A stretch of 64,000 nucleotides of DNA from Nitratireductor sp. XY-223 (GTDB lineage: Bacteria; Pseudomonadota; Alphaproteobacteria; Rhizobiales; Rhizobiaceae). Every line of letters begins with the position of its first letter. The stretch's first letter is position 1. The translations under genes were made by a program, and so were the position numbers. The stretch lies in the NCBI RefSeq assembly GCF_004959855.1, contig NZ_SPNT01000004.1, positions 124,001-188,000 on the forward strand, written 5' to 3'. The notes under the pieces are model-generated. The model worked only from the letters and a program-made list of their open reading frames with translations. It did no database searches and was not told the DNA's origin. Positions 20,959-60,048 of this stretch are shown one piece after another.

Positions 20959-21845
20959 TGCGCGGTCTCCGAAGTCTCGGCCGCGAGGTGCCCGACATGG
21001 CCCTCCTCGCGGCGTTTTTCGCAATTGTCGGTATCGGAGCAGACGAACATGCGGCCGCCCTTGTCGTCGAGGACGACCTCGTCCAGATAGACACCCCGGG
21101 CGCCGCAAAGCGCGCACGGTTCCTCGAATTTCTGCACCTCGAACGGGTGATCCTCGAAATCGAGGCTGACGACATCCGTGTAGGGCGGAACGGCATAGAT
21201 GCGCTTCTCGCGACCCGCCCCGAAGAGCTGCAGCGCCTCGGAACGGTGCATTTTCGGATTGTCGAATTTCGGTGTCGGCGACGGGTCCATCACGTAGCGT
21301 CCCTCGACCTTCACCGGATAGGCGTAGGTGGTGGCGATATGGCCGTTCTTGGCGATGTCCTCGTAAAGCTTGACGTGCATGAGACCGTATTCCTCGAGCG
21401 CGTGCATCTTGCGGGTCTCTGTCTCGCGCGGCTCGAGAAAGCGCAGCGGTTCGGGGATCGGCACCTGGTAGACGAGGATCTGGCCCTCGGTCAGCTTTTC
21501 CTCGGGAATGCGGTGACGCGTCTGGATGATCGTCGCCTCGGCCGTCCTGGTGGTCACGGCGACATTCGCCACCTTCTGGAAGAAGGCGCGGATCGAGACC
21601 GCGTTGGTGGTGTCGTCGGCGCCCTGGTCGATCACCTTCAGCGTATCGTCGGGCCCCAGCACCGACGCGGTGACCTGAACACCGCCGGTGCCCCAGCCAT
21701 AGGGCATCGGCATTTCGCGGCTTGCAAACGGCACCTGGTAGCCGGGAATGGCGATGGCTTTCAGGATCGCCCGGCGGATCATGCGCTTGGTCTGCTCGTC
21801 GAGATAGGCGAAATTGTAGGTCGCCAGTTGCGTGTGCGTGTTCAT
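20955..21845 (-). CDS. phnJ: alpha-D-ribose 1-methylphosphonate 5-phosphate C-P lyase PhnJ
   Basis: 296 residues. PhnJ is the radical-SAM-type enzyme that cleaves the C-P bond. The unusual cluster motif is intact: C-x2-C at EEPCALCG, then 21 residues to C in FVCSDTDNC, which also gives the following Cys. The N-terminal YNFAYLDEQTKRMIRRAILKA and GWGTGGVQVT (region of the glycyl-radical Gly) match the family. Starts and stops overlap by ATGA with both phnI and phnK, so the core is translationally coupled. Confidence 0.97.
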   Translation of the reverse strand: MNTHTQLATYNFAYLDEQTKRMIRRAILKAIAIPGYQVPFASREMPMPYGWGTGGVQVTASVLGPDDTLKVIDQGADDTTNAVSIRAFFQKVANVAVTTRTAEATIIQTRHRIPEEKLTEGQILVYQVPIPEPLRFLEPRETETRKMHALEEYGLMHVKLYEDIAKNGHIATTYAYPVKVEGRYVMDPSPTPKFDNPKMHRSEALQLFGAGREKRIYAVPPYTDVVSLDFEDHPFEVQKFEEPCALCGARGVYLDEVVLDDKGGRMFVCSDTDNCEKRREEGHVGHLAAETSETAQ

Positions 21846-22957
21846 TCGGCGGCCTCCAGATTGTCGCCCTGTTGCCCGGTGGCATTCTGGCGTGCCTCGA
21901 ACTCGCCGCGCATGCGGCGCACGAGGTCGAGCTCGGCCTGGAAATCCACGTAATGCGGCAGTTTGAGGTGTTCGACGAAGCCGGTCGCCTGGACATTGTC
22001 CGAATGGGAGATGACGAATTCCTCGTCCTGTGCCGGCGCCGTCAGGTCCTCGCCCAGTTCGGTCGCCCGCAGCGTCCGGTCGACCAGCGACATGGCCATC
22101 GCCTTGCGCTCGCTCTGGCCGAAGACGAGGCCGTAGCCGCGGGTGAATTGCGGCGGCTGCTTGGCCGATCCCTGGAACTGGTTGATCATCTGGCACTCCG
22201 TGACGCGAATGCGCCCCAGGATGACGGCGAAGCCGAGCTCGGGAACGTCGATCTCCACCTCGACCTCGCCAATGCGTATCTCGCCGGCGAAGGGGTGGCT
22301 GCGGGCATAGCCGCGCTGCGTCGAATAGCCGAGCGCCAGCAGGAAGCCCTCATCGCCCCGCGACAGCGCCTGGAGGCGCACGTCGCGGGTCATCGGAAAC
22401 TCCATCGGCTCGCGCGTCAGATCGCCCGTCCGGTGGTCGTCCGGCAACTCGCCGTCGCCTTCGATGAGCCCTTCCTGGTCGAGGATTTCCGATACGCGCG
22501 GCGTGTGGCCGGTCTCGGCCTCGCGGCTCTGCGGCTCGTCCACCGCCCCGTCGCCCATCAGCTCGGGATCGAGCAGGCGGTGCGTATAGTCGAAGGTCGG
22601 CCCCAGGAGCTGTCCGCCCGGCAGGTCCTTGTAGGTTGCCGATATGCGCCGCTCGATCAGCATGTTGCCGGTATCGATCGGATTGGAGTAGCCGAAGCGC
22701 GGCAGCGTCGTGCGGTAGGCCCGCAGCAGGAAAATCGCCTCGATCATGTCGCCGCGCGCCTGCTTGAAGGCCAGCGCGGCCAGTTCCTTGTCGTAGAGCG
22801 ATCCTTCGCTCATGACCCGGTCGACGGCGAGGCCGAGCTGCTCGACGATCTGCTCGATCGTCATGGCCGGAACCGAACGGTCTCCGCGGCGGCGGTCGGC
22901 GAGCAGCTGATGCGCATTGCTGATGGCGGCTTCCCCGCCCTTGACGGCTACATACAT
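21842..22957 (-). CDS. phnI: C-P lyase core subunit PhnI
   Basis: 371 residues. PhnI is the nucleosidase that couples phosphonate to the C1 of ribose using ATP, with PhnGHL. The start MYVAVKGGEAAISNAHQLLADRRRGD and LPRFGYSNPIDTGNMLIERRISATYKDLPGGQLLGP segments (read here in shorter conserved pieces) are the family hallmarks. It starts 3 bp after phnH ends and overlaps phnJ by ATGA. Confidence 0.96.
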   Translation of the reverse strand: MYVAVKGGEAAISNAHQLLADRRRGDRSVPAMTIEQIVEQLGLAVDRVMSEGSLYDKELAALAFKQARGDMIEAIFLLRAYRTTLPRFGYSNPIDTGNMLIERRISATYKDLPGGQLLGPTFDYTHRLLDPELMGDGAVDEPQSREAETGHTPRVSEILDQEGLIEGDGELPDDHRTGDLTREPMEFPMTRDVRLQALSRGDEGFLLALGYSTQRGYARSHPFAGEIRIGEVEVEIDVPELGFAVILGRIRVTECQMINQFQGSAKQPPQFTRGYGLVFGQSERKAMAMSLVDRTLRATELGEDLTAPAQDEEFVISHSDNVQATGFVEHLKLPHYVDFQAELDLVRRMRGEFEARQNATGQQGDNLEAAE

Positions 22958-44941: not shown

Positions 44942-45871
44942 TTAGGCGCCCGGCCCGCCATAGTAAAGCGAAACCGCATGCTCGGCCTCGGCGAAGAACA
45001 GCCAGCGCTCGACGAAGAGACCCGCCATCAGGGCGACGAAGGCCGGGATCAGCCAAATCGTCGAGGCGGCGAAGAACCATATGGCCAGCGTTATGACCAG
45101 CGGCAATACGGCGCCCAGGAGAAGGGCGATGGACCTCAGTTTCGCAGCGTGTTTTCGGCCGATCACGTGGACCATCTCGCGGGTCAGGTAATTCTCGCCG
45201 GTGTGCGGGCGCTCCAGCAGCCGGACCTTGCCGATGGCGCCAAGGCCGGTTGCCGTTTCCATGGTCGAGCCGGTCGAGGCGAGGCCGGCCCTTGCCGCCC
45301 GCGTCCACCAGGCGACCTTGACGGCCCAGGCGATCAGGATGGCGAAGAATGCGAATCCGGCTGCACCCGGTTCTCCGCCGGTCAGCCCGTTCAGGCCCGC
45401 TGCCAGCAAAAATCCGCAGGTCAGGGAGAAAACGAGGTAACAGGCGGGCGTCAGCCCGGTGTGCCAGCGCGGCACCGTCCTGAGCTGCGCATAGATCATC
45501 GCCGTCGTGTAGACGGTCAGGACCGCACAGGCGGCAACCGGGACGCCGAGCAGCAGGCTGCGTTCACCGCTGACCATCCAAAGGAGTGTGTAGAACCCGA
45601 ACAGGACAAGGGTGACGATCGCCGAAACGCCCTCCCGCGAGAGCCACGAAGAGCGCCACTGGGATAGGGCGCGCCAGGCACGCTCGGGATGGCCAAGATG
45701 GAAGGTCGACGACACCAGGCCGGCAATGGCGAGGCCGCCGGCCAGCGCCGGGATGAGAAACGCCGCCGCAAGGCCGCCGGGCAAAGGCGCGCCGAGGCCG
45801 ATCAGCGCGATCAGGCCAAAGCCGGCGCCCGACATGACGGTGAAGAAGATGACGGAAACAGCCGGATGCAT
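44942..45871 (-). CDS. soeC: sulfite dehydrogenase membrane anchor SoeC (DmsC family)
   Basis: 309 residues with about eight membrane helices. The N-terminus HPAVSVIFFTVMSGAGFGL and FHLGHPERAWRALSQWRSSWLSRE match DmsC/SoeC anchors, which hold the complex in the inner membrane and pass electrons to quinone. It follows soeB by 3 bp. The alternative is a DMSO-reductase-type anchor, but the catalytic subunit fits SoeA better. Confidence 0.85.
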   Translation of the reverse strand: MHPAVSVIFFTVMSGAGFGLIALIGLGAPLPGGLAAAFLIPALAGGLAIAGLVSSTFHLGHPERAWRALSQWRSSWLSREGVSAIVTLVLFGFYTLLWMVSGERSLLLGVPVAACAVLTVYTTAMIYAQLRTVPRWHTGLTPACYLVFSLTCGFLLAAGLNGLTGGEPGAAGFAFFAILIAWAVKVAWWTRAARAGLASTGSTMETATGLGAIGKVRLLERPHTGENYLTREMVHVIGRKHAAKLRSIALLLGAVLPLVITLAIWFFAASTIWLIPAFVALMAGLFVERWLFFAEAEHAVSLYYGGPGA

Positions 45872-45874
45872 GGT

Positions 45875-46615
45875 CTAACCCAGCCTTTCCAAGGCCCGGT
45901 CGAGCCAACCAAGGAAGCCCTCCGGCGCCGGTTCGTTCGCGGAAGTGGACGCTGCTGCCGTATCGGGCCGTGTCTTCGGTCTCGGCGGCAGGTACTTGTT
46001 GACCGGCGCCGTTCCCATTTCCGGCATCAGATCCATCCCGCCGCGCTCGGCAACCAGCCTCGAGACATTGGAAGCGGGATCGGAAAAGTCGCCGAAATGC
46101 CGGGCGCCCGCCGGGCAGGTGCGCACACAGGCCGGCTCGCGGTCCTCCTTCGGGATGTTCTCGTTGTAGATCCGGTCGACGCAGAGCGTGCATTTCTTCA
46201 TGACGTTCTCGACCGGATCCATCTCGCGGGCGCCGTAGGGGCATGCCCAGGCACACAGTCCGCAGCCGATGCACATGGATTCATCGACCAGGACGATGCC
46301 GTCCTCCGAGCGCTTGTAGCTTGCCCCGGTGGGACAGACGGTCACACACGGCGCGTCGGCGCAATGGAGGCAGGATTTCGGGAAATGAACGATCGAGGCG
46401 GGCGCGTCGTCGGGACTGACCTCGAATGTATGAATGCGGTTGAGGAACGAGCCCACCGGTTCGTCGCCATAGGGATCGAGATCGCCAAGCGGCGCGCCAT
46501 AGCCGCCGGTGTTCCACTCCTTGCAATTGACCACGCAGGCGTGACACCCGACGCAGGTGTCGAGATCGATAACCAGGCCGAGCGCCTTTTCGGTTGCCGG
46601 TGGGAGGCTGGTCAT
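45875..46615 (-). CDS. soeB: sulfite dehydrogenase iron-sulfur subunit SoeB
   Basis: 246 residues from ATG at 46615, which overlaps the soeA stop (ATGA) and has GGAGG seven bases upstream; this is preferred over an upstream ATG at 46630. Four cysteine groups (CVGCHACVVNC, CLHCADAPCVTVC, CIGCGLCAWAC, and CTLC with a later CVRTC) bind four 4Fe-4S clusters, as in DmsB. It passes electrons from SoeA to SoeC. A Pro/Ala-rich tail follows the last cluster. Confidence 0.9.
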   Translation of the reverse strand: MTSLPPATEKALGLVIDLDTCVGCHACVVNCKEWNTGGYGAPLGDLDPYGDEPVGSFLNRIHTFEVSPDDAPASIVHFPKSCLHCADAPCVTVCPTGASYKRSEDGIVLVDESMCIGCGLCAWACPYGAREMDPVENVMKKCTLCVDRIYNENIPKEDREPACVRTCPAGARHFGDFSDPASNVSRLVAERGGMDLMPEMGTAPVNKYLPPRPKTRPDTAAASTSANEPAPEGFLGWLDRALERLG

Positions 46616-49491
46616 TGTTTTGCCTCCCATTCCTCGCCGTAGGCAATCACGGAAGGCGGTTCGGCAAGGCCGTCCTTCTGCGGCGGAAACTGCGGCAGCG
46701 AGACCGGATGTTCCTCTGCCTCGGCCTTTTCGATGCGGACCCTCAAGTCGAACCAGGCCGCCTGGCCGGTGATCGGATCGGAATTCGACCAGCGCAGCCC
46801 GTCGGCCTTCGGCGGCAGCAATTCATGAATCAGATGGTTAAGCAGGAATCCCCGTTTGGCCTCGGGTGCATTCTCGTCCAGCGCCCAGGCGCCCGGACGC
46901 TTGCCGATGGCGTTCCAGGTCCACATCGTCTTGCCGTTGACCGCCTCCATGCGGCGCACCGGGACCTTGATTCGTCCGTGATGGGAAATGACCCATGCCC
47001 AGTCGCCGTCCTTCAGGCCGGCCTCGTCGCAGATCGGGCCGGGCACATAGAGCGGATTGCTGCCGTGGATCTGTCGCAGCCAGGCGTTTTGCGAGCCCCA
47101 GGAATGGTACATGGCGGCCGGGCGCTGGGTGATGGCGTGGTATGGAAATTCGTCCTTCGATAACCCCTCGCCCTCGAATGGCGCATACCAGACCGGCAGC
47201 GGATCGAAGGTCGCCTTTATGCGTTCGCGGTGGCTGTCCGGCGGCTGGCGGTCGCCGTGGCCCTCGGCGGCGAGCTGGAACTTGCGCAACGGCTCCAGAT
47301 AGAGCTGGAAGACGTTTTCCACCGCGCCGTCCTGTAATCCCATTTCGATGGCCCAGTCGGACCAGGCCCGGTTGGCGTGCTTGAAGTACTGCGCTTCCTC
47401 CGGCACGTGCGCCTCGAAGAATCCGCCGTTCTCGATATAGCGGTTGATCTGTCCGGGATTGGGATCGCCACGGCCATGGGTTCCGCCGTTCTTGCCGCGC
47501 CATCCGGCCAGCGGGCCGACGCCCGGACGCCGCTGATGGTTGACCATGTAGTCGGCATAGTCGGCGTAGAGCGGATCGCCATTGCCATCGATCATGCCGG
47601 GAAGTCCGAGCCGGGCGCCGAGATCGAGCAGCACCGACTGGAAGCCGCGCACGTCGCGGCCCTCCCCTTGCGTCGCCGGATCGACGACGGGCCAGCGGAT
47701 GGAATCGGCCAGCGCCTCCGGTTCCGATATCGGCCGGTCGAGAAGCGAGATGCAGTCGTGCCGCTCGAGATAGGTCGTATCGGGCAGCACCAGATCGGCA
47801 TAGGCGACCATTTCGGAATTATAGGCATCCGAATAAATGATCCTGGGGATGCGGTAGTTGCCGTCCGCATCCTTGTCGGAGAGCATTTCCATGACGCCGC
47901 CGGAATTCATCGACGAATTCCACGACATGTTGGCCATGTACATGAACAGGACGTCGATCGGGTACGGATCGCCGGCATGGGCATTGGATATGACCATGTG
48001 CATCAGGCCGTGCGAGGACATCGGCGCGTCCCAGCTGAAGGCATGGTCGATGCGCTGCGGCGTGACGCCGTCCTCCTGCAGCAGCAGCTCCTCCGGCCCG
48101 CGCAGGAAGCCCAGATGCGGCCCCGGCAGCGGCTCGCCCGGCTTGCAGCCGCCATGCGGCCTGGGCTGGCCGTCGATCGGCCTCGGATAGGGCGGCTTGA
48201 AGCGGAAACCCCCGGGGCAGTCGATGGAGCCCAGGAGAATCTGCAACAGGTGCAGCGCGCGGCAGGTCTGGAAACCGTTTGAATGGGCGGAGATGCCGCG
48301 CATGGCGTGAAAGGAGACGGGCCGCCCGACCATCCGTTCGTGGCGTTCGCCCTTCATGTCCGTCCAGGGCTGCTCGACGACGACCTCGCGCTCGAAGGCG
48401 GCGTCCGCGATCTCCGCCGCAAGCCGGCGTGTCTGGGCAGCGGAGACACCGGTTTCCCGGGCGACCGCCTCCGGCGCATAATCCTCGCCGAGATATTTCT
48501 TCGCCAGCAATTCGAACACCGGGCGGGCCGTGCGTCCGTCCGGCAGGGTCACCGCGCCTTTCAATGCAGGTTTGAGGCCACTCGATTTGGATGACAGGCA
48601 TTCTTGTTTGTGCCGGTCGAAAACCAGCGGCTCGCCCGCTTCGTTGCGGGCAAACAGCCCGTGATCGGCGCTGTCTTCGTCTTCGATGACCAGCCAGGGC
48701 GCATTGGTGTAACGGATAAGGTAGTCGAGATCGATCCTGCCCGCCTTCAGCAGTTCGTGGACCAGCGCCAAAATGAAGAGACCGTCGGTGCCGGGCGTGA
48801 TGCCGACCCATTCGTCGGCGACCGCGTTGTAACCGGTGCGCACCGGATTGACGCCGATGACCTTGATGCCGCGTTCCTTGAGGCGGCCGAGACCCATCTT
48901 TATCGGGTTGGAATCGTGGTCCTCGGCAACACCGAAGATCATGAAGAGTTCGGTCTTCTCCCAGTCGGGGGAGCCGAATTCCCAGAAGGCGCCGCCGAAG
49001 GTGTAGATGCCGCCGGCGGCCATGTTCACCGAGCAGAAACCGCCATGGGCGGCGAAATTGGGGGTTCCGAACTGCTGCGCCCACCAGCCGGTCAGCGACT
49101 GGCTCTGGTCGCGACCGGTGAAGAAGGCCAGCTTCTTGGGATCGCGCTCGCGCACCTCGCCCAGCCATTCGGTGGCCAGCGCCAGTGCCTCGGCCCACTC
49201 AATTTCCCTGAATTCGCCGCTGCCGCGCTCGCCGGTGCGCAAAAGGGGCTTGTTGAGCCGCGCCGGCGAATAATGCTGCATGATGCCGGCCGAGCCCTTG
49301 GCGCACAGGACCCCGCGATTGATCGGATGATCGCGGTTGCCCTCGATATAGCGGACCTTGGGCCGGCCGTCGGGGCCGTTTCTCAGATGTACGTTGATGC
49401 CGCAGCGGCAGGCGCACATGTAACAGGTGGTCTTGCGGATTTCATCGGACACATGGGGCGAGCGCTCCACATCGTGCCTGTCTCCGCCCAT
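46612..49491 (-). CDS. soeA: molybdopterin oxidoreductase, sulfite dehydrogenase catalytic subunit SoeA
   Basis: 959 residues, GGGGAG site before the ATG. The N-terminal 4Fe-4S motif is C23-x2-C26-x3-C30-x32-C63 (TCYMCACRCG ... VLCAKG). The probable Mo ligand is C153 in GGFCSVNMAAGG. There is no Tat signal, as expected for the cytoplasmic SoeA, which oxidises sulfite to sulfate. The IRYIEGNRDHPINRGVLCAKG-type region (here VRYIEGNRDHPINRG) is characteristic of SoeA and relatives. A polysulfide/thiosulfate-reductase role cannot be fully excluded. The 231 bp before it hold the promoter region and no gene. Confidence 0.85.
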   Translation of the reverse strand: MGGDRHDVERSPHVSDEIRKTTCYMCACRCGINVHLRNGPDGRPKVRYIEGNRDHPINRGVLCAKGSAGIMQHYSPARLNKPLLRTGERGSGEFREIEWAEALALATEWLGEVRERDPKKLAFFTGRDQSQSLTGWWAQQFGTPNFAAHGGFCSVNMAAGGIYTFGGAFWEFGSPDWEKTELFMIFGVAEDHDSNPIKMGLGRLKERGIKVIGVNPVRTGYNAVADEWVGITPGTDGLFILALVHELLKAGRIDLDYLIRYTNAPWLVIEDEDSADHGLFARNEAGEPLVFDRHKQECLSSKSSGLKPALKGAVTLPDGRTARPVFELLAKKYLGEDYAPEAVARETGVSAAQTRRLAAEIADAAFEREVVVEQPWTDMKGERHERMVGRPVSFHAMRGISAHSNGFQTCRALHLLQILLGSIDCPGGFRFKPPYPRPIDGQPRPHGGCKPGEPLPGPHLGFLRGPEELLLQEDGVTPQRIDHAFSWDAPMSSHGLMHMVISNAHAGDPYPIDVLFMYMANMSWNSSMNSGGVMEMLSDKDADGNYRIPRIIYSDAYNSEMVAYADLVLPDTTYLERHDCISLLDRPISEPEALADSIRWPVVDPATQGEGRDVRGFQSVLLDLGARLGLPGMIDGNGDPLYADYADYMVNHQRRPGVGPLAGWRGKNGGTHGRGDPNPGQINRYIENGGFFEAHVPEEAQYFKHANRAWSDWAIEMGLQDGAVENVFQLYLEPLRKFQLAAEGHGDRQPPDSHRERIKATFDPLPVWYAPFEGEGLSKDEFPYHAITQRPAAMYHSWGSQNAWLRQIHGSNPLYVPGPICDEAGLKDGDWAWVISHHGRIKVPVRRMEAVNGKTMWTWNAIGKRPGAWALDENAPEAKRGFLLNHLIHELLPPKADGLRWSNSDPITGQAAWFDLRVRIEKAEAEEHPVSLPQFPPQKDGLAEPPSVIAYGEEWEAKQ

Positions 49492-49722: not shown

Positions 49723-50751
49723 CTATGCCGGACGTGCGGCCGATAGAGCGTGGCGCCTCGGCCGGCGGACGGAGTTGCGTTCGACAATCGAAGCCTCAAG
49801 GCGAACGGATTCAATCGAATCACCGTGGTCGAGGTGCCTGACCAGCGACTGGGCAACGCAAATGCCCATCCGGGCCGTCGGAAGACGCACCGTTGTCAGC
49901 GGGGGCGCACTGTGGGCGGACCAGTCGAGGTCATCGCAACCCATGAGGCTCAGTTCATCCGGCACGGCGATCCGGCGGCGATCGGCCTCGAAAAGCACCC
50001 CCAGGGCAATGACGTCGGAAAGACTTAGGACCGCGGTGACGTCTGCGATGTCCCCGAACAACTGCTGCGCGGCGGCAACCCCGCCCTCGACGTCGAGCGT
50101 CGATTCGCGGAGGGAAACCGATACACCGGTCGCCCGGGCGCCCCTTTCGACACCGGATATTCTCAGGCGCGTCCGGTCATTGTCGGAGACCGGACCATGG
50201 ACGACAGCAACGGAGCGATGGCCGACCTCGGCCAGGTGCCGGATCGCCGCCTCACCGATCACCGCATTGTCGTAGCCGATGGCCGGCAGGCCGTTGTTCG
50301 TCTCGCACACACTCGTGCAGACGGCGGGTATGCCGCGTCCCACCAGCCCGTCAAGCAGCGCCTTGCTGTGCTCCGCACCGGACAGGATCAACGCTTCCGC
50401 GCCAAGGTTCATCAGTTCGCCGACACGCCGCTCCTCGGCTTCCGGCCTGCCTTCCGTCGTCGCGATGACGAGTGCATAGCCGTGTTGCGCCAGTTCCCTT
50501 TCGACGGCGTTGAGGAACCGGGCGAAGATCGAGTGTGCCAGCGTCGGCACGACGGCACCGATGGTCTTGGTCCGACTGGTGGCAAGCGCCCGCGCGGCCG
50601 GGTTGGGCGCATAGCCGACCTCGCGCATGGCGTTCAGGACGCGCTCACGGGTCTGCTTGTTGACGTTGTCGGCGTTGTTCAGAACCCGCGATATCGTGGC
50701 GACGGACAGGCCGGTCGCTTTCGCCAGACCCCTCACTCCGGTTTTTTTCAT
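49723..50751 (-). CDS. LacI-family transcriptional repressor
   Basis: 342 residues. HTH at residues 5-50 (VRGLAKATGLSVATISRVLN, minor-groove hinge PNPAARALATSRTKTIG), then a periplasmic-binding-protein-like effector domain (GAVVPTLAHSIFARFLNAVE, LMGCDDLDWSAHSAPPLTTV). Start at 50751 gives the canonical LacI N-terminus. It is divergent from the DUF1989-GcvT gene and two LacI-type operators lie in the 171-bp space between the start codons, so it almost certainly represses that operon and perhaps itself; the inducer is probably the transported substrate or a catabolite. Confidence 0.93.
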   Translation of the reverse strand: MKKTGVRGLAKATGLSVATISRVLNNADNVNKQTRERVLNAMREVGYAPNPAARALATSRTKTIGAVVPTLAHSIFARFLNAVERELAQHGYALVIATTEGRPEAEERRVGELMNLGAEALILSGAEHSKALLDGLVGRGIPAVCTSVCETNNGLPAIGYDNAVIGEAAIRHLAEVGHRSVAVVHGPVSDNDRTRLRISGVERGARATGVSVSLRESTLDVEGGVAAAQQLFGDIADVTAVLSLSDVIALGVLFEADRRRIAVPDELSLMGCDDLDWSAHSAPPLTTVRLPTARMGICVAQSLVRHLDHGDSIESVRLEASIVERNSVRRPRRHALSAARPA

Positions 50752-50847
50752 GCTGTCAGGGCATCCTCCGGGCCGGTTTTCGCAAAGAGAATCGGTTTTC
50801 CAAACAAGTCGATACGTCAAAAATTAGCATATCCACCGGCAAAGTCA

Positions 50848-50876
50848 TTGACTTATGTAACCGTTTACAGTTTTAT
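50848..50876 (+). promoter_or_regulatory. sigma70-type promoter of the DUF1989-GcvT operon
   Basis: TTGACT (50848-50853), a 17-bp spacer and TTTTAT (50871-50876) form a good -35/-10 pair. The first LacI-type palindrome fills the spacer and the second covers the expected start of transcription near 50883, the classical layout for steric repression. Confidence 0.6.
50856..50869. promoter_or_regulatory. LacI-type operator 1
   Basis: TGTAACCGTTTACA: a 14-bp palindrome with one mismatched pair and the central CG typical of LacI/GalR operators. It lies between the -35 and -10 elements of the promoter at 50848-50876. Confidence 0.8.
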
Positions 50877-50879
50877 TGA

Positions 50880-50893
50880 TGTAACCGGTTACA
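50880..50893. promoter_or_regulatory. LacI-type operator 2
   Basis: TGTAACCGGTTACA: a perfect 14-bp palindrome 24 bp (centre to centre) from operator 1, 29 bp before the proposed TTG start codon. The two copies differ at one position. It overlaps the predicted transcription start. Confidence 0.85.
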
Positions 50894-50922
50894 TTGAACT
50901 GGATAACACCGAGGACAGGGCG

Positions 50923-53247
50923 TTGCAACTATTTGCTCCCGAATCCGGCGGACTGATCAGCCCAGGCATTCGTTATGTCGGCTTTGCGGACCGGAGCCAG
51001 ACTGAAAGCCGTGAAATACGCTACGGCGAAACCGGCAGAGTGGCACTTTGCGACGGCGACCTGGTTACCATCACCTGCGTCGACGGCGGCGTTTCGATCC
51101 TGTTGGCCGCGTTCGATGAATCCGGCTCGGATGCTCTGCAGCAACTGAATTTGAAACAACACGAAACCCCGGTTGAGGACTTCGGTACGCTTGACCGGAC
51201 GGCGCTCGACGGCTGGCTCGGAGCACGTGGTGCGGACTTTTCGACGGTGTGCTTCGCCCGCTTGTTCGGCGCGGGAACGCCAGCCGCCGAGCGCTTTACT
51301 TTCAGATCGCGGACAGATTGCACGCTCTGGCTGGCCTTGCCGGCCGACGGCGCAATGATATCAACGGGCGGCGGCGGAACGTTTTCCATCGAAGTCGCGC
51401 GCGCCGCGTCAAACAGCTTTCTTCCCGATCCGGTGGGAGACGTGCGCGACGAATTCACCGTCGATAGCGGCACCGCGCGCGCCTATGAACTGCGCAAGGG
51501 CGATTTCGTCCAGATCATCGATATCGAGGGTCGTCAATGTTCCGATTTCATGGCCATGCGCGCCGACGCGCTCCACCGGGGCATCGAGCGCCACATCGAC
51601 TCGACGGTCACCCGCACCTTCGCGGGCGGCGCCTATCCGGCACCGGGCCTGTTCGACAAATTCTTCGACCAGGACATGCAGCCGCTCCTTAACGTGACCC
51701 AGGACAGTGTCGGACGTCACGACACGTTTGCACTGGCCTGCACGGCGCGCGGCTACGAGGAGCGCGGGTTTCCCGGGCACCTCAATTGTTCGGACAACAT
51801 CTCCGCAGCGTATGAGCCGTTCGGCATTGCAATGCGCAGCGCCTGGCCGGCGATCAATTTCTTCTTCAATTCCAGCATCCAGCCGACCGACAACCGTCTG
51901 CGGGTCGACGAGGCCTGCTCCCGCCCGGGCGATCACGTTATCATGCGCGCCCTGACCGACCTGGTGTGCGTGTCGACGGCATGCCCGGACGACATAGATC
52001 CGATCAACGGATGGAACCCGACGGACATCCACGTGCGCATTTACAAGCCGGATACACCGATCCAGCGGGCCGTTGCGTATCGGCCCTTCAATGACAGCGA
52101 GGTTTCCATGACCCAAGAGAGCGCATTCAACACTCGCACGAGTGCGCTGACGCGATCGTTCCAGGTCGCCAGGGACCTGTGGCTGCCGAGCAGTTACGAG
52201 GCGACCCGCGCCATCGACGAGTACTGGGCCTGTCGCAAGGCCGTCACCATCCAGGACACGTCATCGCTGCTGAAGTTCGACGTTCTCGGCCCGGACGCCG
52301 AGAGGCTCTTGCAGAAATGCTTGACCCGGGACGTCTCGCGGCTCTCGGTCAACAGAGGCGTTTACGCGCTCGCGGCCGCGGAGGACGGCAGCGTGCTCGA
52401 CGACGGAACGCTCTTCCGGCTCGGGCCGGATCTCTTCCGCTGGTGCTGCGGATCGGAGGAGAGCGCCCGCCATTTCCGCGAGGCCGCGCAAGAGGACGGC
52501 ATGAAGGTCTGGATCAAGGCCTATGGCCCGGCGATGCCAAGCCTGGCGCTGCAGGGCCCGAACAGCCGCAAATTGCTGGAGCGCCTGGTTTTCATCCAAC
52601 CCCACCAGCCGGCGCTCGAGGCCATCAAATGGTTCGGCGTCACGGTCGCCAGGCTGCACGACAGAAACGGCCCGGCTTTCATGCTGTCGCGAACAGGTTT
52701 TACCGGGGAACTCGGATACGAGATCTTCTGCGCGCAGGACGCGGCCGTCGGCATCTGGGACGCGCTGATGGAGGCCGGTTCGGACATCGGCATCACGCCC
52801 ATGGGTCTGGACGCGCTCGAAACCATTCGCATCGAGGCGGGTCTGATGGTGGCGGGAGCGGAATTCTCACCGGGAACGGACGCGTTCGAAGCCGGACTGG
52901 GTTTCGCGGTCGACCTCAAGAAGGACGCATTCATCGGTCGCGATGCTCTGCTGCGCAACAGGGCGGCGCCGCGCCGCGCGCTGGTCGGGCTTCTTTTTGA
53001 GGGCAACGAGGTGCCGAACCATGGCGATCCGGTCATCGTCGGCAGACGGGAAGTCGGCACGGTGACCAGCGCCACGCGTTCGCCGATGCTTGGCCGGCCG
53101 ATCGCCATGGCGCGTGTCGCCGTCGAGCACGCACAGGAGGGCAGCACGATCGAAATCGGACAACTGGACAGGCACAGCAAACGCTTGCAGGCCACGATCA
53201 CCAGTATTCCGTTCATCGACCCCAAACGGGAAAGGGCCAGAGCCTGA
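50923..53247 (+). CDS. DUF1989-GcvT fusion protein, putative folate-dependent demethylase
   Basis: 774 residues from a proposed TTG at 50923, which has GAGGAC 8 nt upstream; no ATG or GTG in frame lies between the promoter and residue 145, and further upstream the frame runs through the operators. Three parts: residues 1-165 unassigned beta-rich; 166-392 a DUF1989 (urea-carboxylase-associated) domain with QCSDFMAM, HLNCSDNISAAYEPFGI and WNPTDIHVRIY; 400-774 a GcvT/DmdA-like aminomethyltransferase (RTGFTGELGYEIF, LDALETIRIEAGLMVAG, FEAGLGFAVDLKKDAFIGRD). GcvT relatives move a methyl or methylene group to tetrahydrofolate. With the betaine-type importer downstream, demethylation of a methylated amine is inferred; the DUF1989 role is unknown. 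Confidence 0.82.
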   Translation: MQLFAPESGGLISPGIRYVGFADRSQTESREIRYGETGRVALCDGDLVTITCVDGGVSILLAAFDESGSDALQQLNLKQHETPVEDFGTLDRTALDGWLGARGADFSTVCFARLFGAGTPAAERFTFRSRTDCTLWLALPADGAMISTGGGGTFSIEVARAASNSFLPDPVGDVRDEFTVDSGTARAYELRKGDFVQIIDIEGRQCSDFMAMRADALHRGIERHIDSTVTRTFAGGAYPAPGLFDKFFDQDMQPLLNVTQDSVGRHDTFALACTARGYEERGFPGHLNCSDNISAAYEPFGIAMRSAWPAINFFFNSSIQPTDNRLRVDEACSRPGDHVIMRALTDLVCVSTACPDDIDPINGWNPTDIHVRIYKPDTPIQRAVAYRPFNDSEVSMTQESAFNTRTSALTRSFQVARDLWLPSSYEATRAIDEYWACRKAVTIQDTSSLLKFDVLGPDAERLLQKCLTRDVSRLSVNRGVYALAAAEDGSVLDDGTLFRLGPDLFRWCCGSEESARHFREAAQEDGMKVWIKAYGPAMPSLALQGPNSRKLLERLVFIQPHQPALEAIKWFGVTVARLHDRNGPAFMLSRTGFTGELGYEIFCAQDAAVGIWDALMEAGSDIGITPMGLDALETIRIEAGLMVAGAEFSPGTDAFEAGLGFAVDLKKDAFIGRDALLRNRAAPRRALVGLLFEGNEVPNHGDPVIVGRREVGTVTSATRSPMLGRPIAMARVAVEHAQEGSTIEIGQLDRHSKRLQATITSIPFIDPKRERARA

Positions 53248-53292
53248 GAAAATCAACCAGAAACGTGTGATGAAAAAGAAGGGAACACGGAA

Positions 53293-54252
53293 ATGAAGAA
53301 ACTGATGCTTGCGGCATTGTTCGCCGCCTCGACAAGCCTGAGCGCGCAGGCCGCCGATACCGTGATGATCGGCGAGCCGAGCTGGCCGGGCGCCAAGATC
53401 ATCGCCAACCTGATCAAGGTGGTGATCGAGGAAAAACTCGGCGGCGAGGCCGAACTCGTGCCGGGAACCAACCCGGTCATCTTCGCGGCAATGGACGGCG
53501 GCCGCGGGGACATCGACGTTCATCCCGATGTCTGGCTTCCGAACCAGAAGAGCCTGACGGACGAATATGTCGACGACAAGGGTACCGTCGGCCTGTCCTC
53601 TGGGGCCTATGAAGGCCGTTCCGGCTTCTGCGTTCCGAGCTACGTCGCCGACGAGCACAATGTGAAGTCGGTCTATGACCTGGCGACGCCCGAGGCGCAG
53701 GCGCTGTTCGATTCCGACGGCGACGGCAAGGGCGAAATCTGGGTCGGCGCATCCGGCTGGGCATCGACCAACGTGCACAAGGTCAAGGCGCGCGACTATG
53801 GCATCGAGACCTTCCTGGAGCCGGGAACCGAAGACGAAACCGTTTTCTACGCGAAGCTGAAGGCCATCGTCTCGCAGAAAAAGGGCGCGGTATTTTATTG
53901 CTACAAGCCCCACTATGTGCACGCGCTCTATGACGTGACCATGCTGGACGAGCCGCCGCACGATCCGGAAAACTACACGATCGTGCAGCCTGATGCCGAT
54001 GCCGACTGGTACGACAAGTCGAAGATCACGACGGGCGATTCCGTAAAATCCGTGCGGATCGCCCACTCCAAGTCGCTCGAGGAACGCGCGCCCGATGCCG
54101 CCAAGCTGCTTGCAAACATGGCGCTCAACTCCGACGATGTGTCCGCCTGGACCTTTGAGGTCGTTGTCAACGGCAAGGAACCGGAGGACGTCGTGAAGGC
54201 CTGGGTAGCTGAAAACGGCAAGACCGTCGATACCTGGCTTGGCATCAAATAG
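53293..54252 (+). CDS. proX: glycine betaine/proline-type ABC transporter substrate-binding protein
   Basis: 319 residues with signal peptide (MKKLMLAALFAASTSLSAQA). OpuAC/ProX-type fold: MIGEPSWPGAKIIANLIKVV, GGRGDIDVHPDVWLPNQ and GASGWASTNVHKVKARDYGI contain the aromatic residues (Trp, Tyr) expected to form the cage for a quaternary ammonium group, for example W in the first and last segments and FYCYKPHYVHALYD. It follows the fusion gene by 45 bp and precedes a stable hairpin. Confidence 0.9.
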   Translation: MKKLMLAALFAASTSLSAQAADTVMIGEPSWPGAKIIANLIKVVIEEKLGGEAELVPGTNPVIFAAMDGGRGDIDVHPDVWLPNQKSLTDEYVDDKGTVGLSSGAYEGRSGFCVPSYVADEHNVKSVYDLATPEAQALFDSDGDGKGEIWVGASGWASTNVHKVKARDYGIETFLEPGTEDETVFYAKLKAIVSQKKGAVFYCYKPHYVHALYDVTMLDEPPHDPENYTIVQPDADADWYDKSKITTGDSVKSVRIAHSKSLEERAPDAAKLLANMALNSDDVSAWTFEVVVNGKEPEDVVKAWVAENGKTVDTWLGIK

Positions 54253-54265
54253 CCGGCCGAATCCG

Positions 54266-54288
54266 GCCCGCCGCCCCCGGCGGCGGGC
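54266..54288 (+). repeat. very stable hairpin between the binding-protein and ATPase genes
   Basis: GCCCGCCGCC (54266-54275) pairs perfectly with GGCGGCGGGC (54279-54288) around a CCC loop, 14 bp after the binding-protein stop and 6 bp before the ATPase start codon. There is no T-run. It can protect the upstream message and lower translation of the downstream genes, because the purine-rich ribosome-binding bases lie inside the stem. Confidence 0.75.
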
Positions 54289-54294
54289 AGACCA

Positions 54295-55401
54295 ATGAAC
54301 GGAACCGATCCCATGGAGACCACCCCGGAAGACCATCCGATCATCGCGCGAAACGTCTGGAAAATCTTCGGCGACAGAGCCGCGGAAGCCCACGCGGCAA
54401 TCCTTGCCGACGGACTTTCGAAGGCCGAAGTGCTGGAACAGTTCGGCTGCGTCGTCGGCGTCGCGGATGCCAGTTTCTCGATCGCGGAAGGCGAGATCTT
54501 CTGCATCATGGGATTGTCCGGTTCCGGAAAATCGACGCTGGTGCGGCACATCAACCGGCTGCTGGAGCCGACCGCCGGCGAGATCCTCATCGAGGGCAAC
54601 GATGTCATGAAGCTCAACGAAGCGCAGTTGCGGGAGCTTCGCAATCACAAGGTTGCCATGGTGTTTCAGAATTTCGGACTGATGCCGCACCGGACCGTGC
54701 GCGACAATGTGGCGATGCCGCTGGAAATCCGCGGCTCGTCGAAGCGCCAGCGCTGGACCGAGGCGGACCGCGTTCTCGACATGGTGAACCTGACCGGCTG
54801 GGAGGACAAGTACGCGCACGAACTGTCGGGCGGCATGCAGCAAAGGGTGGGGCTTGCCAGGGCCCTCGCCTCCAACCCCGCCATCCTCTTGATGGACGAG
54901 CCGTTCTCGGCGCTCGATCCGCTTATCCGCCGACAGTTGCAGGATCAGTTCATGGATCTTTCCGACCGGCTCAAAAAGACCACCATATTCATCACCCACG
55001 ATCTCGACGAGGCCATTCGCATCGGAAACCGCATTGCGATCATGAAGGATGGCCGGATCGTGCAGACCGGAACGCCCGAAGAGATCGTGATGAACCCGGC
55101 CGACGATTACGTGTCGGATTTCGTGGCCGGGATCTCCAAGCTCGATCTCGTCTACGCCCACTCCATCATGGAACCCGTGGAGCGTTACAGCAGCGAGAAC
55201 GGCACCATCGCCGCGAATGCCGCCAGGGCGCATCACAACAGCGATCTGAACACGTTGATCAACGTCGCGGTCGAGACGGACGGCCCCATCCTGATCGACG
55301 ACGACGACGGCAATGCAGTCGGTGTCGTCGACCGTACCCGGCTGATGCGCGCCATCCAGGGCAATCGCAAACAGGAGGCAGCATCCCATGAGCCCGCGTG
55401 A
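54295..55401 (+). CDS. proV: glycine betaine/proline-type ABC transporter ATP-binding protein
   Basis: 368 residues (an ATG at 54313 is the alternative start). Walker A GLSGSGKST, signature LSGGMQQRVGLARAL, Walker B ILLMDEPFSALDP. The N-terminal NVWKIFGDRAAEAHAAILADGLSKAEVLEQFGC insertion before the core, seen here in two pieces, is typical of ProV. After the ABC core residues 280-368 hold a shortened CBS-like region (ILIDDDDGNAVGVVDRTRLM), compared with two CBS domains in longer ProV proteins. It overlaps the permease gene by 14 bp. Confidence 0.92.
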   Translation: MNGTDPMETTPEDHPIIARNVWKIFGDRAAEAHAAILADGLSKAEVLEQFGCVVGVADASFSIAEGEIFCIMGLSGSGKSTLVRHINRLLEPTAGEILIEGNDVMKLNEAQLRELRNHKVAMVFQNFGLMPHRTVRDNVAMPLEIRGSSKRQRWTEADRVLDMVNLTGWEDKYAHELSGGMQQRVGLARALASNPAILLMDEPFSALDPLIRRQLQDQFMDLSDRLKKTTIFITHDLDEAIRIGNRIAIMKDGRIVQTGTPEEIVMNPADDYVSDFVAGISKLDLVYAHSIMEPVERYSSENGTIAANAARAHHNSDLNTLINVAVETDGPILIDDDDGNAVGVVDRTRLMRAIQGNRKQEAASHEPA

Positions 55402-56893
55402 CAGCAGCGACAGCAGCCTTGAGAACCTCGTCGCCACATTCGCCGGCAGCAATTCGGGCTATTACAGCCGCCAGTTTGCCTATCTCAGCGAGGCGCCGGG
55501 ATTCCGGGCGAGTTTCAATCCCATGGCGGGGCTCGCAAGCCCGGTGTGGTTCGGCGCCCGGGGCCTTTGGTCCTGGTTCCTGGTGTTCCTGCTCGCCGAG
55601 ACCTTCGCCTATATCCAGATCTTCCGGGGCTGGCTGGGCAATCTCGGCCAGGATCAGCTCGAGCGCGCCGAGGCCATACGCCGGACACTGGCGACAAGGC
55701 TGGAGCAGATCGAGGCAGCCAGGCAATCGGGCGACAGCAGCCTTGAGGCACTGGAACGCGCAGCTCAGTCGCTTCAGCGGGCGCTCGATGATTCCCTTTC
55801 CGCCGCGCAGGCGGCATCGGGTGACGCCCTGGCCCTCGTCCTGTTCGGCCTCGCCATCCTGGCCGCGGCCAAGCTGAGCGCAGCGGTGATTGCCAACTGG
55901 GCGCTGGAGACGCGTTTCACGCGTTGGCGGTCCGACCAGTCGCTGGCGAGCGGACTTTCAACCGGGCGCGTCATTGCGGCGACCGTGGTCTTTGTCTGCG
56001 CCGCCGGGCTTTCGTCCCTGCGCTTCGCGCGCCCCGACATCGTGCCGATGCTGCTCGATTTTCCCACCGATAAGAATTTCAGGATCGCGACCGCCGACTG
56101 GATCAAGGACGGCTTCGAGTGGGCCAAGAGCAGCGGCGCCGAATTCTTCAATGCGATCACGCTCGGCGTGCGTTCCCTGCTCGACGGGCTGGAGATCGTC
56201 TTCGTCGGCACGCCCTGGCCGGTCATCATCATCTTCGTCGGCATGCTCGCATGGCTGACCGGCGGCAGCCGCGTCGCCATATTCACCATCGCGGCGCTGG
56301 CCTATCTCGGCATCCTCGGCTTCTGGGAAAAGGCGATGACGACCATCTCGCTGCTCGGCGCGGCCGCCATGGTGTCGATCACGCTGGGCATACCGCTCGG
56401 CATATTGTGCGCCCGCCGTCCGAGGCTGTTCGCCATCATCCGGCCGATCCTGGACTTCATGCAATCCATGCCGTCCTTCGTCTACCTCATACCGGTGATC
56501 GCCTTCTTCGGCGCCGGCAAGCCGGCGGCGATCGTCGCGACCCTGATCTTCGGATCGCCACCCGTTATCCGCCTGACCGTGCTCGGCCTGCAGCAGGTGC
56601 CGGGCACCGTCCGCGAGGCGGCGCTGGCTTTCGGGGCAACGCCCGCCTATCTGCTTTTCAAGGTCGATCTGCCGCTTGCCGCCAGGACGATCATGGCGGG
56701 CGTCAACCAGACGATCCTAATGTCGCTGGCAATGGTCGTGGTGGCATCGCTGATCGGCGCGAAGGGCCTTGGCGAGGATGTTCTCGAAGCGCTGCAGTTT
56801 GCCTCTGAGGGACAGGGCATACTCGCAGGCCTCGCCATCCTGTTCTGCGCTTTGATCCTTGACCGGATCGTCGCCGGAAAACCGCAGAACTGA
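55388..56893 (+). CDS. proW: glycine betaine/proline-type ABC transporter permease with extra N-terminal half
   Basis: 501 residues, against about 280-350 usual. Residues 300-500 are the ProW core, with IPLGILCARRPRLFAIIRPI, LGLQQVPGTVREAALAFGAT (coupling loop) and IGAKGLGEDVLEALQF. The first 230 residues are unusual: a soluble start with GYYSRQFAYLSEAPGF and SFNPMAGLASPVWFGARG, resembling the N-terminal motif of DUF2628-like membrane proteins, then a helix, a likely coiled coil (about 97-142, LEQIEAARQ...LEALERAAQ) and two more helices. The start has GGAGG nine bases upstream. Last gene of the operon. Confidence 0.9.
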   Translation: MSPRDSSDSSLENLVATFAGSNSGYYSRQFAYLSEAPGFRASFNPMAGLASPVWFGARGLWSWFLVFLLAETFAYIQIFRGWLGNLGQDQLERAEAIRRTLATRLEQIEAARQSGDSSLEALERAAQSLQRALDDSLSAAQAASGDALALVLFGLAILAAAKLSAAVIANWALETRFTRWRSDQSLASGLSTGRVIAATVVFVCAAGLSSLRFARPDIVPMLLDFPTDKNFRIATADWIKDGFEWAKSSGAEFFNAITLGVRSLLDGLEIVFVGTPWPVIIIFVGMLAWLTGGSRVAIFTIAALAYLGILGFWEKAMTTISLLGAAAMVSITLGIPLGILCARRPRLFAIIRPILDFMQSMPSFVYLIPVIAFFGAGKPAAIVATLIFGSPPVIRLTVLGLQQVPGTVREAALAFGATPAYLLFKVDLPLAARTIMAGVNQTILMSLAMVVVASLIGAKGLGEDVLEALQFASEGQGILAGLAILFCALILDRIVAGKPQN

Positions 56894-57538: not shown

Positions 57539-59425
57539 CTATTCCGCCTTGCTTCCCGGCGGCAACCAGGCGCGCTTGACCCGGTCGTGGACGGAAGGGT
57601 TGTCGGAAAGCGCCTCCTCCGTCTCTTTCTCGATCTCGCGCGCCATCTTCATGTAGGGCTCGTTCTCGAAGGGCGGAATCTCCGGGTCGTAGAGCTGCGC
57701 CAGGCGCCGGATCCCGTCCCGGTCGCGCTCCACGAAGACGGTAATCAGCTTCTCGACCTCGTGCGGGTGCACGCCGAAGGCCTCCAGCGCGTATCGCGCG
57801 GCCCGAACCGCGCTGTCGAAGGTCTCGCGCACAATGTCGTCGGCGCCGGCCTTGTAGAGCTCGTAGACATAGTGGCGGTTGCGGGCGCGCGCGACGATGT
57901 GCAGATCCGGCTTTTCGCGCCGCGCATGTTTGACGATCTCGACGGCCCGGTCCATGTCGTCGATGGCGACGACCAGCAGGCCCGCCTCTTCAAGACCCGC
58001 CGCGTGCAGCAGGTCCGGGCGGGAGGCATCACCGTAGAAGGTGCGTATGCCGTAGCGGTTGAACCCGTCGACCATGTCGGCGCTGAGATCGAGCACCACC
58101 GTCTTGTAGCCGTTGCCCTTGAGCACCCGGTTGATCACCTGGCCGAAACGGCCGATGCCGCAGATGATCGCGGCACCCTTCTCGTCGATCTCGTCCGCCG
58201 CCCTGCCCTGCTCCTCGTCGAGGCGCGGCAGAACCACCCGGTCGAAGACGATGAAAAGGGCCGGTGTCAGAAGCATCGACAGCGCAACGACCAGCAGCAG
58301 CAGGTCGGCGAGGTCCGTCGGTATCACCGCGTTCTGCACCGAAAACGAGAGCAGCACGAAACCGAATTCGCCGGCCTGGGCGAGCGACAGGGTGAAGAGC
58401 CACTGATCGGCGCCGCGCAGCCGGAAGATGAAGGACAGCGCCAGAAGGACAGCGGCCTTCAGCGCCATCAGGCCGATGGTGAGGCCGATGACGAGCAGCG
58501 CGTTGTCGAACAACAGCACGAAGTTGATGCCGGCGCCGACGGTGATGAAGAACAGGCCGAGCAGCAGTCCCTTGAACGGCTCGATATCGCTTTCCAGCTC
58601 GTGCCGGAATTCGCTGTTGGCGAGCACCACACCCGCCAGGAACGTGCCGAGCGCCGGCGACAGCCCGACGAGCGTCATAAGGAAGGCAATGGCAACGACG
58701 AGAAGCAGCGCCGCCGCGGTGAATATCTCGCGCAGCTTTGCCGATGCGATGAACCGGAACAACGGCCGCGACAGGTAGTGGCCGCCTGCCACGACGGCGG
58801 CAATCGCGGCGATATTGACGATGGCGACCTGCCAGCCGGAAAGGCCCTCGATCAGGCTGAGTTCGGCGCCGTGCCCGCCTTCCGCGTGGGCCTCGGCCCC
58901 GTGGTGGACGAGTTCAGGCAGGGCAAGAAGCGGAATCAGCGCCAGCATCGGAATGACGGCGATATCCTGAAACAGCAGCACGGAAAAACTCGACTGGCCG
59001 CCGTCGCTCTTCATCAGGCCCTTCTCGTTGAGCGTCTGCAACACGATCGCCGTCGACGACAGCGAGAACACCAGTCCGATCGCCAGGGCGACGCTCCAGC
59101 CGAGACCCAGCGCCATGCCCGCCGCCATCACCAGGACGGTGGTCACGCCGACCTGCAGGCCGCCGAGACCGAGCAGACGGTTGCGCATGGTCCACAGCGT
59201 TCGCGGCTCCAGCTCCAGCCCGACGAGGAACAACATCATCACGACGCCGAACTCGGCGATGTGCTGGATGCTCTCGGTATCCCCGACGAGCCCGAGCACC
59301 GGCCCGATGACGATGCCGGCGATGAGGTAGCCGAGCACGGAGCCCAGCCCCATGCGTTTCGCAACCGGGACCGCAATTACGGCGGCGCACAGATAGATGA
59401 AGGCCTGGAAAAGCAGACCGGTCAC
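57539..59425 (-). CDS. kefB: Kef-type K+/H+ antiporter
   Basis: 628 residues from a GTG that overlaps the preceding gene's stop (GTGA) and has GGAGG 7 nt upstream. CPA2 exchanger domain with about 13 helices over residues 1-385 (VLGYLIAGIVIGPVLGLV, FLVGLELEPRTLW, LLFQDIAVIPMLALIPL, SLAQAGEFGFVLLSFSVQ), then an RCK/TrkA-N domain from about 405 with IICGIGRFGQVINRVLKGNG. Glutathione-gated K+ efflux during electrophile stress is the family role; KefB and KefC cannot be separated by eye. A His-rich loop (HHGAEAHAEGGH) lies at about 180. Confidence 0.92.
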   Translation of the reverse strand: MTGLLFQAFIYLCAAVIAVPVAKRMGLGSVLGYLIAGIVIGPVLGLVGDTESIQHIAEFGVVMMLFLVGLELEPRTLWTMRNRLLGLGGLQVGVTTVLVMAAGMALGLGWSVALAIGLVFSLSSTAIVLQTLNEKGLMKSDGGQSSFSVLLFQDIAVIPMLALIPLLALPELVHHGAEAHAEGGHGAELSLIEGLSGWQVAIVNIAAIAAVVAGGHYLSRPLFRFIASAKLREIFTAAALLLVVAIAFLMTLVGLSPALGTFLAGVVLANSEFRHELESDIEPFKGLLLGLFFITVGAGINFVLLFDNALLVIGLTIGLMALKAAVLLALSFIFRLRGADQWLFTLSLAQAGEFGFVLLSFSVQNAVIPTDLADLLLLVVALSMLLTPALFIVFDRVVLPRLDEEQGRAADEIDEKGAAIICGIGRFGQVINRVLKGNGYKTVVLDLSADMVDGFNRYGIRTFYGDASRPDLLHAAGLEEAGLLVVAIDDMDRAVEIVKHARREKPDLHIVARARNRHYVYELYKAGADDIVRETFDSAVRAARYALEAFGVHPHEVEKLITVFVERDRDGIRRLAQLYDPEIPPFENEPYMKMAREIEKETEEALSDNPSVHDRVKRAWLPPGSKAE

Positions 59426-60048
59426 GGCTGCGCCTCCTCGGCGATCGGCAGTGTGTGCGCGGTCAGCACCGACAGTTCCGCCGCCGCATCGAGATCGAGG
59501 CGGTCGTCGCGCAGCGCTTTGAGAAACCGGCCATAGCCCTCGATATGCTCGGCAAGCCCATCGTCGCCCGCCGCCTTCAGCGCGGCGTAGAGCGTATAGG
59601 GCGGCACGAAACGCAGCCCGCACAGATTGGCCGTCTGCTCGATCGGCGTCAGCAGGTCCCGCAGCGGATAGTTGTTGCGCCCGCCGACCTGATAGAACTC
59701 TTCCGGGCCGCCGGTGGTGACCACCGGCACGAAAAGCTTGCCGGCGATCATGACGCCGCCCTCGCCATAGGCGAAGCCGTATTCGAGCACCAGGTCCTGC
59801 CACTCCTTGAGAAGGGCCGGCGTCGAATACCAGAACAGCGGGAACTGGAACACGATGACATCGTGATCGAGGAGACGCTGCTGTTCGGTCTCCACGTCTA
59901 TTTTGAAGCGCGGATACTCGGCATAAAGATCGACAAGCGTCACGCCCCTTGTCTGCCGCGCGATCTTCGCCAGTTCGATATTCGCCCGGGAGTAGCGCTG
60001 GCCCGGATGTGCAAACAAGACAAGTATTTTCCGGCTCTGCTGCGCCAC
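59422..60048 (-). CDS. kefG: Kef-associated NAD(P)H-dependent oxidoreductase (KefF/KefG type)
   Basis: 208 residues with a flavodoxin-like fold: KILVLFAHPGQRYSRANIEL at the N-terminus, VIVFQFPLFWYSTPALLKEW and GKLFVPVVTTGGPEEFYQ. These quinone-reductase-like proteins bind the Kef antiporter on its cytosolic side and are needed for full activity. The gene overlaps the antiporter gene by 4 bp, supporting a complex. KefF versus KefG is not resolvable by eye. Confidence 0.9.
   Translation of the reverse strand: MAQQSRKILVLFAHPGQRYSRANIELAKIARQTRGVTLVDLYAEYPRFKIDVETEQQRLLDHDVIVFQFPLFWYSTPALLKEWQDLVLEYGFAYGEGGVMIAGKLFVPVVTTGGPEEFYQVGGRNNYPLRDLLTPIEQTANLCGLRFVPPYTLYAALKAAGDDGLAEHIEGYGRFLKALRDDRLDLDAAAELSVLTAHTLPIAEEAQP

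Follow-up and report, generated by a model that had tools for sequence, protein, structure and literature searches.

Trimethylamine N-oxide (TMAO) demethylase (Tdm) of Methylocella silvestris is described in PMC12560246 as a protein with a DUF1989-like N-terminal domain that lacks the zinc cysteines, a DUF1989 domain with a Zn site and a proposed Fe site, and a GcvT domain. According to that source the enzyme yields dimethylamine and formaldehyde from TMAO whether or not oxygen is present, and needs no tetrahydrofolate (THF). Ligand roles are given there to D198, C263, H276, C279, C343 and D346, although D198 is disputed as the bridging residue. Here Tdm is compared with a locus at positions 49723-56893 of a 64,000-nt stretch of Nitratireductor sp. 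XY-223 (NZ_SPNT01000004.1, 124,001-188,000; the window), where a 774-residue fusion protein is followed by genes for a ProX/V/W-type importer and faced by a LacI-family gene. Judged by its sequence, the fusion is a full-length relative of Tdm and not an undescribed architecture. What appears to be new is that it belongs to a separate clade with its own LacI regulator, ProX/ProV neighbours and operator; the three-part layout was already published. We coined the label Tdm2 for this clade.

The fusion is encoded by a single open frame from a TTG start at 50923 to the stop at 53247 on the plus strand, with GAGGACAG immediately 5' of the TTG. Its best NCBIfam model is NF053776 (trimethylamine N-oxide demethylase), matched over residues 21-774 with 1086.5 bits, below the cut-off of 1100. 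The closest solved sequences are the TMAO demethylase chains 9q59 (E 7.3e-199) and 9q5a (1e-196), aligned over residues 15-773. Residues 1-178 (50923-51456), which the initial annotation had left unassigned, gave no match in a Pfam search up to E 1; they are the counterpart of the DUF1989-like domain of Tdm, with the 9q59 alignment starting at residue 15. The DUF1989 domain follows at residues 179-348 (51457-51966; Pfam, whole-protein E 1.4e-40), then the GcvT folate-binding-fold and C-terminal barrel domains at 52159-53220 (Pfam GCV_T, residues 413-662, 2.8e-56, and GCV_T_C, residues 685-766, 3.9e-19; Foldseek match 1yx2, 1.9e-34). An AlphaFold model of the fusion (mean pLDDT 86.2, pTM 0.86; lower, 63-76, at residues 261-290) gave Foldseek matches to structures of GcvT and of DUF1989, and 9q59 was absent from the 50 matches listed. 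The cut-offs of the urea amidolyase-associated families UAAP1/2 were not reached (TIGR03424, 84.9 vs 284.7; TIGR03425, 50.1 vs 205.95).

The metal site of Tdm appears to be intact in the fusion. D208, C273, H286 and C289, together with C354 and D357 just past the Pfam DUF1989 match, are the probable Zn and Fe ligands, mapped from M. silvestris Tdm by motif and spacing. All six are invariant in an alignment of 43 sequences from both clades (A1). Leu632 of the fusion aligns with Leu in 9q59 and with the Arg of GARDT in 1yx2, which probably corresponds to R223, the THF-contacting residue of E. coli GcvT (PMC12560246). The three-part layout, the probable ligands and the loss of this Arg are thus shared with Tdm (WP_012592556.1; 9q59/9q5l/9q5a; NF053776). 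The initial annotation knew of no characterised protein with such a layout, regarded DUF1989 chemistry as unsettled and linked the GcvT part to the transfer of one-carbon units to THF. None of these views is supported, given M. silvestris Tdm as PMC12560246 describes it and, for the last, also the Leu of the fusion. The proposal that an imported methylated amine is demethylated by the fusion very probably holds, given the family, once the THF role and the novelty of the layout are removed from it.

To place the fusion within the family, the best 80 of 503 relatives were kept, comprising 66 loci of the Tdm2 type and 14 of the canonical type. A tree of 111 of the 112 possible rows (the contig-cut fragment L014 was excluded) splits into 70 Tdm2 leaves and 41 canonical leaves, the latter including 9q59 and a second, tmo-linked copy from the genome of the window. 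The branch between the clades measures 0.81 substitutions per site with a FastTree local support of 1.0, and the window protein lies across this fully supported split from the solved Tdm. The clades are told apart by 21 positions, most sharply by residue 277, which is Gly in 70/70 Tdm2 sequences and Tyr in 41/41 canonical sequences, four residues past a Zn cysteine and nine ahead of the proposed Fe histidine. Beside the metal ligands, I361 is present in 69/70 Tdm2 sequences as opposed to Ala in 38/41 canonical ones. NF053776 scores were 968.7-1141.4 bits for six Tdm2 members scanned and 1143.6-1275.2 bits for five canonical proteins; 4/5 Tdm2 proteins other than that of the window also fell below the cut-off and 1/5 exceeded it.

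Record titles of Tdm2 sequences include Rhizobiaceae, Rhodobacteraceae, Roseibium, Pelagibius, Marinomonas, Marinobacterium, Ideonella and Granulosicoccaceae. A survey of 398 genomes across the phylum found a Tdm relative in 27, of the canonical type in 26 and of the Tdm2 type in two (that of the window and G318); two candidates were scored per genome, so second copies may have been missed, and the genome of the window has both types. In the open literature, subscription papers being outside this scope, no title or abstract was found on a second, LacI-linked branch of Tdm. The description of the module as undescribed therefore survives in a weaker form, for the sister clade and not for the layout.

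The genome also has a canonical copy, absent from the initial annotation, which allows a direct comparison. This other DUF1989 protein sits in an ordinary tmoX, tmoV, tmoW, tdm cluster (L007, 3612-10136; 440.6-447.1 kb of contig C44, near a contig end); some 5 kb ahead of tmoX stands a glutamine-synthetase-type gene, named gmaS-like by position. The TmoX of this cluster is closely related to that of Ruegeria (4xz6, 4.2e-176) and retains Glu131. The Tdm of the cluster scores 1228.9 bits with NF053776 and shares 46% identity with the window protein. Unlike this copy, the window Tdm2 gene is not linked to tmoXWV or to dimethylamine or methylamine genes. The tmoW frame of the canonical cluster encodes a long permease of 656 aa.

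The gene order and coordinates of the initial annotation proved correct. The LacI-family regulator gene is divergent, at 49723-50751 on the minus strand, and encodes 342 aa from an ATG at 50751 (Pfam LacI, 9.6e-15; Peripla_BP_3, 2.3e-27). A gap of 45 bp, stop to start, separates the fusion gene from proX, and proX, proV and proW all lie on the same strand as the fusion gene. They encode a ProX-type substrate-binding protein with a pocket of the aromatic-cage type (53293-54252; OpuAC, 4e-49), a ProV-type ATPase (54295-55401; ABC_tran, 4e-36) and a ProW-type permease (55388-56893; BPD_transp_1, 2.7e-22). ProV passed the TIGR01186 cut-off (366.3 vs 326.6 bits), and ProW missed that of TIGR03416 (264.8 vs 363 bits, residues 232-495). 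These matches agree with the betaine-type ABC importer named in the initial annotation. Neither ProX nor ProW passed an equivalog cut-off that would assign a ligand. Some 230 residues precede the family match in ProW, and this N-terminal extension has weak coiled-coil-like Pfam matches (E 0.29-0.4).

Across the 66 Tdm2 loci the recurrent neighbours were ProV (37), ProW (32), ProX (32) and LacI (31); other clusters present in at least four loci were judged to be probable antisense or shifted frames. No reductase, ferredoxin or other redox partner was among the recurrent neighbours at these loci. In loci with enough flank, a divergent LacI homologue was found at 30/61 Tdm2 loci vs 0/14 canonical loci, and ProX with ProV at 28/45 Tdm2 loci vs 0/12 canonical loci. 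Roughly half of the Tdm2 loci are thus without the LacI gene, the ProX/ProV pair or both, and these include many Granulosicoccaceae contigs. Near transporter-less Tdm2 genes an amidase gene was seen at L067 (8306-9742, by Pfam) and a look-alike at L110 (14544-16028, by eye), on contigs titled gammaproteobacterial or Granulosicoccaceae; the amidase is a possible clue to the substrate.

The importer itself varies. Tdm2 loci have two ProX types, that of the window in the gene order X-V-W and another, which shares about 40% identity with it, in the order V-W-X. At L077 a further ProX-type protein, 50% identical to that of the window, is encoded at 21196-22158, with the Tdm2 gene about 9 kb upstream. 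TRAP transporter genes adjoin Tdm2 at L047, L074 and L083 (called by Pfam DctP and DctM for L047 and L083, by resemblance for L074), with a LysR-type gene also at L074 and L083 (by Pfam for L083). The genomes of L074 and L083 (G213 and G218) carry a second Tdm2 copy linked to X-V-W and LacI. Tdm2 copies stand beside LysR-type and TRAP genes at L151 (4617-11383) and L152 (3231-9934), whose genomes also have an X-V-W/LacI-linked copy. An attempt to read the TRAP solute from DctP failed: 83 solved sequences matched at E 1e-5 or better, the best at 4.3e-22, and no ligand could be read from them.

A palindrome was found between the divergent genes and is a candidate operator. A perfect copy, TGTAACCGGTTACA, occupies 50880-50893 and ends 29 bp 5' of the TTG start, and a second with one mismatch, TGTAACCGTTTACA, occupies 50856-50869; neither was in the initial annotation. 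TGTAACCGGTTACA or a near variant precedes most LacI-linked Tdm2 genes. In the genome of the window, exact matches to TGTAACCGNTTACA occur at 50856 and 50880 only. A further one-mismatch site on contig C33 was dismissed, as a reversed-pattern control gave six strand matches vs six.

For the wider searches, Tdm2 genomes were taken from 40 of the 66 named loci plus five matching genomes, hand-chosen with isolates first. As G202 (L043) and G164 show identical coordinates, they were counted as one, which gives 44 unique genomes. The operator was searched in 48 genomes, made up of 43 of these (all except G000) and the genomes of L060, L084, L103, L100 and L057. The exact palindrome was present in 19/48 vs 1/48 for the reversed-pattern control, as one site per genome at the tdm2 promoter. 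The exception is G231, which has two, the second directly 5' of an unlinked proV-proW-proX set (L147). At zero mismatches, that set was the only candidate regulon member beyond tdm2 in the 48 genomes. An operator common to tdm2 and an unlinked proVWX indicates that the regulator, the enzyme and the importer form one system also where their genes are not adjacent. Together with the conserved neighbours, it bears out the initial view of the three as one unit.

The regulator has the LacI helix-turn-helix and a sugar-binding-type domain, as expected of a LacI-family member, and a conserved palindromic operator between divergent genes. Repression by this protein would be the likely mode of control by analogy with the LacI family. 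PMC13390433 describes TmaR (AraC type) and TmoR (GntR type) as regulators of trimethylamine catabolism. The control of genes for methylated-amine demethylation would be shared with them; the regulator here differs in being of the LacI family with its own operator, and the word LacI is absent from the main text of that paper.

These results are consistent with a LacI-controlled uptake-and-demethylation module in which a Tdm-type enzyme acts on an imported N-oxide other than TMAO, a reading to which we give close to an even chance. In such a module, ProXVW would import a small methylated compound that is positively charged or zwitterionic. The Zn/Fe site of the DUF1989 domain would then convert an N-methyl N-oxide to the demethylated amine and formaldehyde with no external oxidant or reductant, the oxygen used most likely being that of the N-oxide itself, as in Tdm. 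The GcvT domain may receive the formaldehyde. The LacI protein would repress in both directions from one or two operators of the palindrome type. The substrate would most likely be a non-TMAO N-oxide, which may be larger and carry a carboxyl group, and its demethylation would yield a compound that feeds into ordinary metabolism. Ordinary metabolism probably handles this product already, since the module has no recurrent second catabolic gene and the dimethylamine pathway is for the most part missing. TRAP genes beside some Tdm2 genes would suit a substrate with an acidic group, given the properties of TRAP binding proteins. As a guess, conversion of dimethylglycine N-oxide to sarcosine would suit the betaine-type importer and the TRAP partners. 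Sarcosine oxidase alpha was considered as a sign of a sarcosine product and is uninformative, being near-universal (43/44 genomes). In its wider form the proposal is that Tdm2 is a deep second Tdm branch, scattered through Alpha- and Gammaproteobacteria, with a different and unrecognised N-methyl N-oxide or similar onium zwitterion as substrate, induction sensed by LacI, and interchangeable importers (ProX of two types, and TRAP). We put this forward tentatively.

Tdm2 might instead simply be a further TMAO demethylase served by a different TMAO importer and regulator, with dimethylamine excreted or used by other enzymes and formaldehyde as a source of energy. We regard this as possible but rather doubtful. 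The architecture and metal ligands are those of Tdm, and the NF053776 scores lie near the threshold. According to PMC8918994, SAR11 strain HTCC1062 uses TMAO although no dmmDABC homologue was found in it. Against it, the invariant Tyr of the canonical clade is swapped for Gly, and a canonical tdm coexists in 17/44 unique Tdm2 genomes. Candidate genes for dimethylamine and methylamine disposal are also rare where Tdm2 stands alone: a GmaS-like or high-scoring PF11927 protein was present in 1/27 Tdm2-only genomes, 16/17 genomes with both types and 47/48 canonical genomes. The canonical set consisted of 37 of 38 other matching genomes (the fragment G089 was left out) and 11 of the 14 named canonical loci, genomes without a locus being typed by identity only.

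The substrate-binding proteins (SBPs) also argue against TMAO. In TmoX, Glu131 binds the TMAO oxygen (PMC8918994). In an alignment of the window ProX with 29 of the 33 SBPs found (A2; L042, L062, L065 and L075 were left out), this Glu aligns with S, T, Q or A in 30/30 proteins, S110 in the window ProX, and TmoX Trp222 aligns with Tyr in 21/30. The transporter family and the cage tryptophans at 31, 81 and 156 are shared with TmoXWV (Ruegeria pomeroyi TmoX, PDB 4xz6); identity to TmoX is 18-19%. The OpuAC-type fold and cage are also shared with DmpX (PDB 7yle) and ProX (PDB 1r9l), at 18-20% identity, and Glu113 of DmpX is not retained. Ala157 of the window ProX was considered as a carboxylate-binding counterpart of DmpX Ala153 and dropped because the Trp152-Ala153 pair of DmpX aligns elsewhere.

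Several points weigh against the favoured reading. The NF053776 cut-off was missed by just 14 bits, and the congener copy L011 passes it at 1141.4. The first Foldseek matches listed for the ProX model are TmoX with TMAO, then DmpX with dimethylsulfoniopropionate (DMSP) and the choline and glycine betaine proteins, so that TMAO is the ligand of the best match. A conserved carboxylate-binding site was not established in ProX from the alignment with DmpX, and no natural carboxylated N-oxide was documented in this analysis. Judged from the sequence, Gly277 may face the pocket. GmaS and DmmA are candidate identities of the GmaS-like and PF11927 matches. A GmaS-like protein as lone discriminator was uninformative (12/45 Tdm2 vs 9/48 canonical genomes). 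PF11927 at any score was found in 21/44 Tdm2 vs 43/48 canonical genomes. The line for a high score, 218 bits, was set after the Tdm2 scores had been viewed and is not clean, since second paralogues reach 217. Taxa and completeness are also unequal between the genome groups.

A third explanation is that the metal site has been re-purposed and that a non-N-oxide such as a betaine is demethylated or otherwise cleaved, perhaps with O2 or THF. The importer is of the betaine type, its ProX profile being nearest among solved sequences to E. coli ProX (2.5e-18), a few loci have TRAP partners, and residues near the metal ligands have changed. DUF1989 proteins outside Tdm do other chemistry, carboxyguanidine deiminase being one. 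Every probable Zn and Fe ligand is nevertheless retained, the THF-contacting Arg of GcvT is Leu as in 9q59, and no redox partner recurs beside Tdm2, all of which make this explanation improbable. A local frameshift or an assembly error that fuses two normally separate genes can be rejected with near certainty as the origin of the DUF1989-GcvT join, as no point in its favour was found, the solved Tdm is likewise one chain, and 66 of the best 80 relatives have the same continuous frame (701-911 codons, a few ending at contig ends) at an identity of at least 51%, so the single frame reported initially is genuine.

Other genes flank the locus. Directly upstream of lacI, on the minus strand at 44942-49491, lies a three-gene molybdopterin oxidoreductase set, which we take to be SoeABC-like. 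It consists of a 959-aa catalytic subunit, an Fe-S subunit and a 309-aa protein without an NCBIfam match, and no NCBIfam cut-off was reached. Frames of similar lengths lie upstream in a congener (L148) too. On the other side, at 57539-60048 of the minus strand, are a KefC-like potassium efflux gene and a KefF/KefG-like oxidoreductase gene.

Marine surveys count tdm genes to gauge TMAO use (PMC5520151, for instance, applies a cut-off of e-50), and Tdm2 proteins are expected to pass that cut-off. If the Tdm2 substrate differs from TMAO, tdm counts in such surveys mix two functions. The small, well-delimited operon, which comprises a single enzyme, importer and regulator, would then give a direct route to the compound. 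If Tdm2 is indeed a second branch with a substrate of its own, some of the proteins now labelled TMAO demethylases would be part of a nutrient cycle yet to be discovered.

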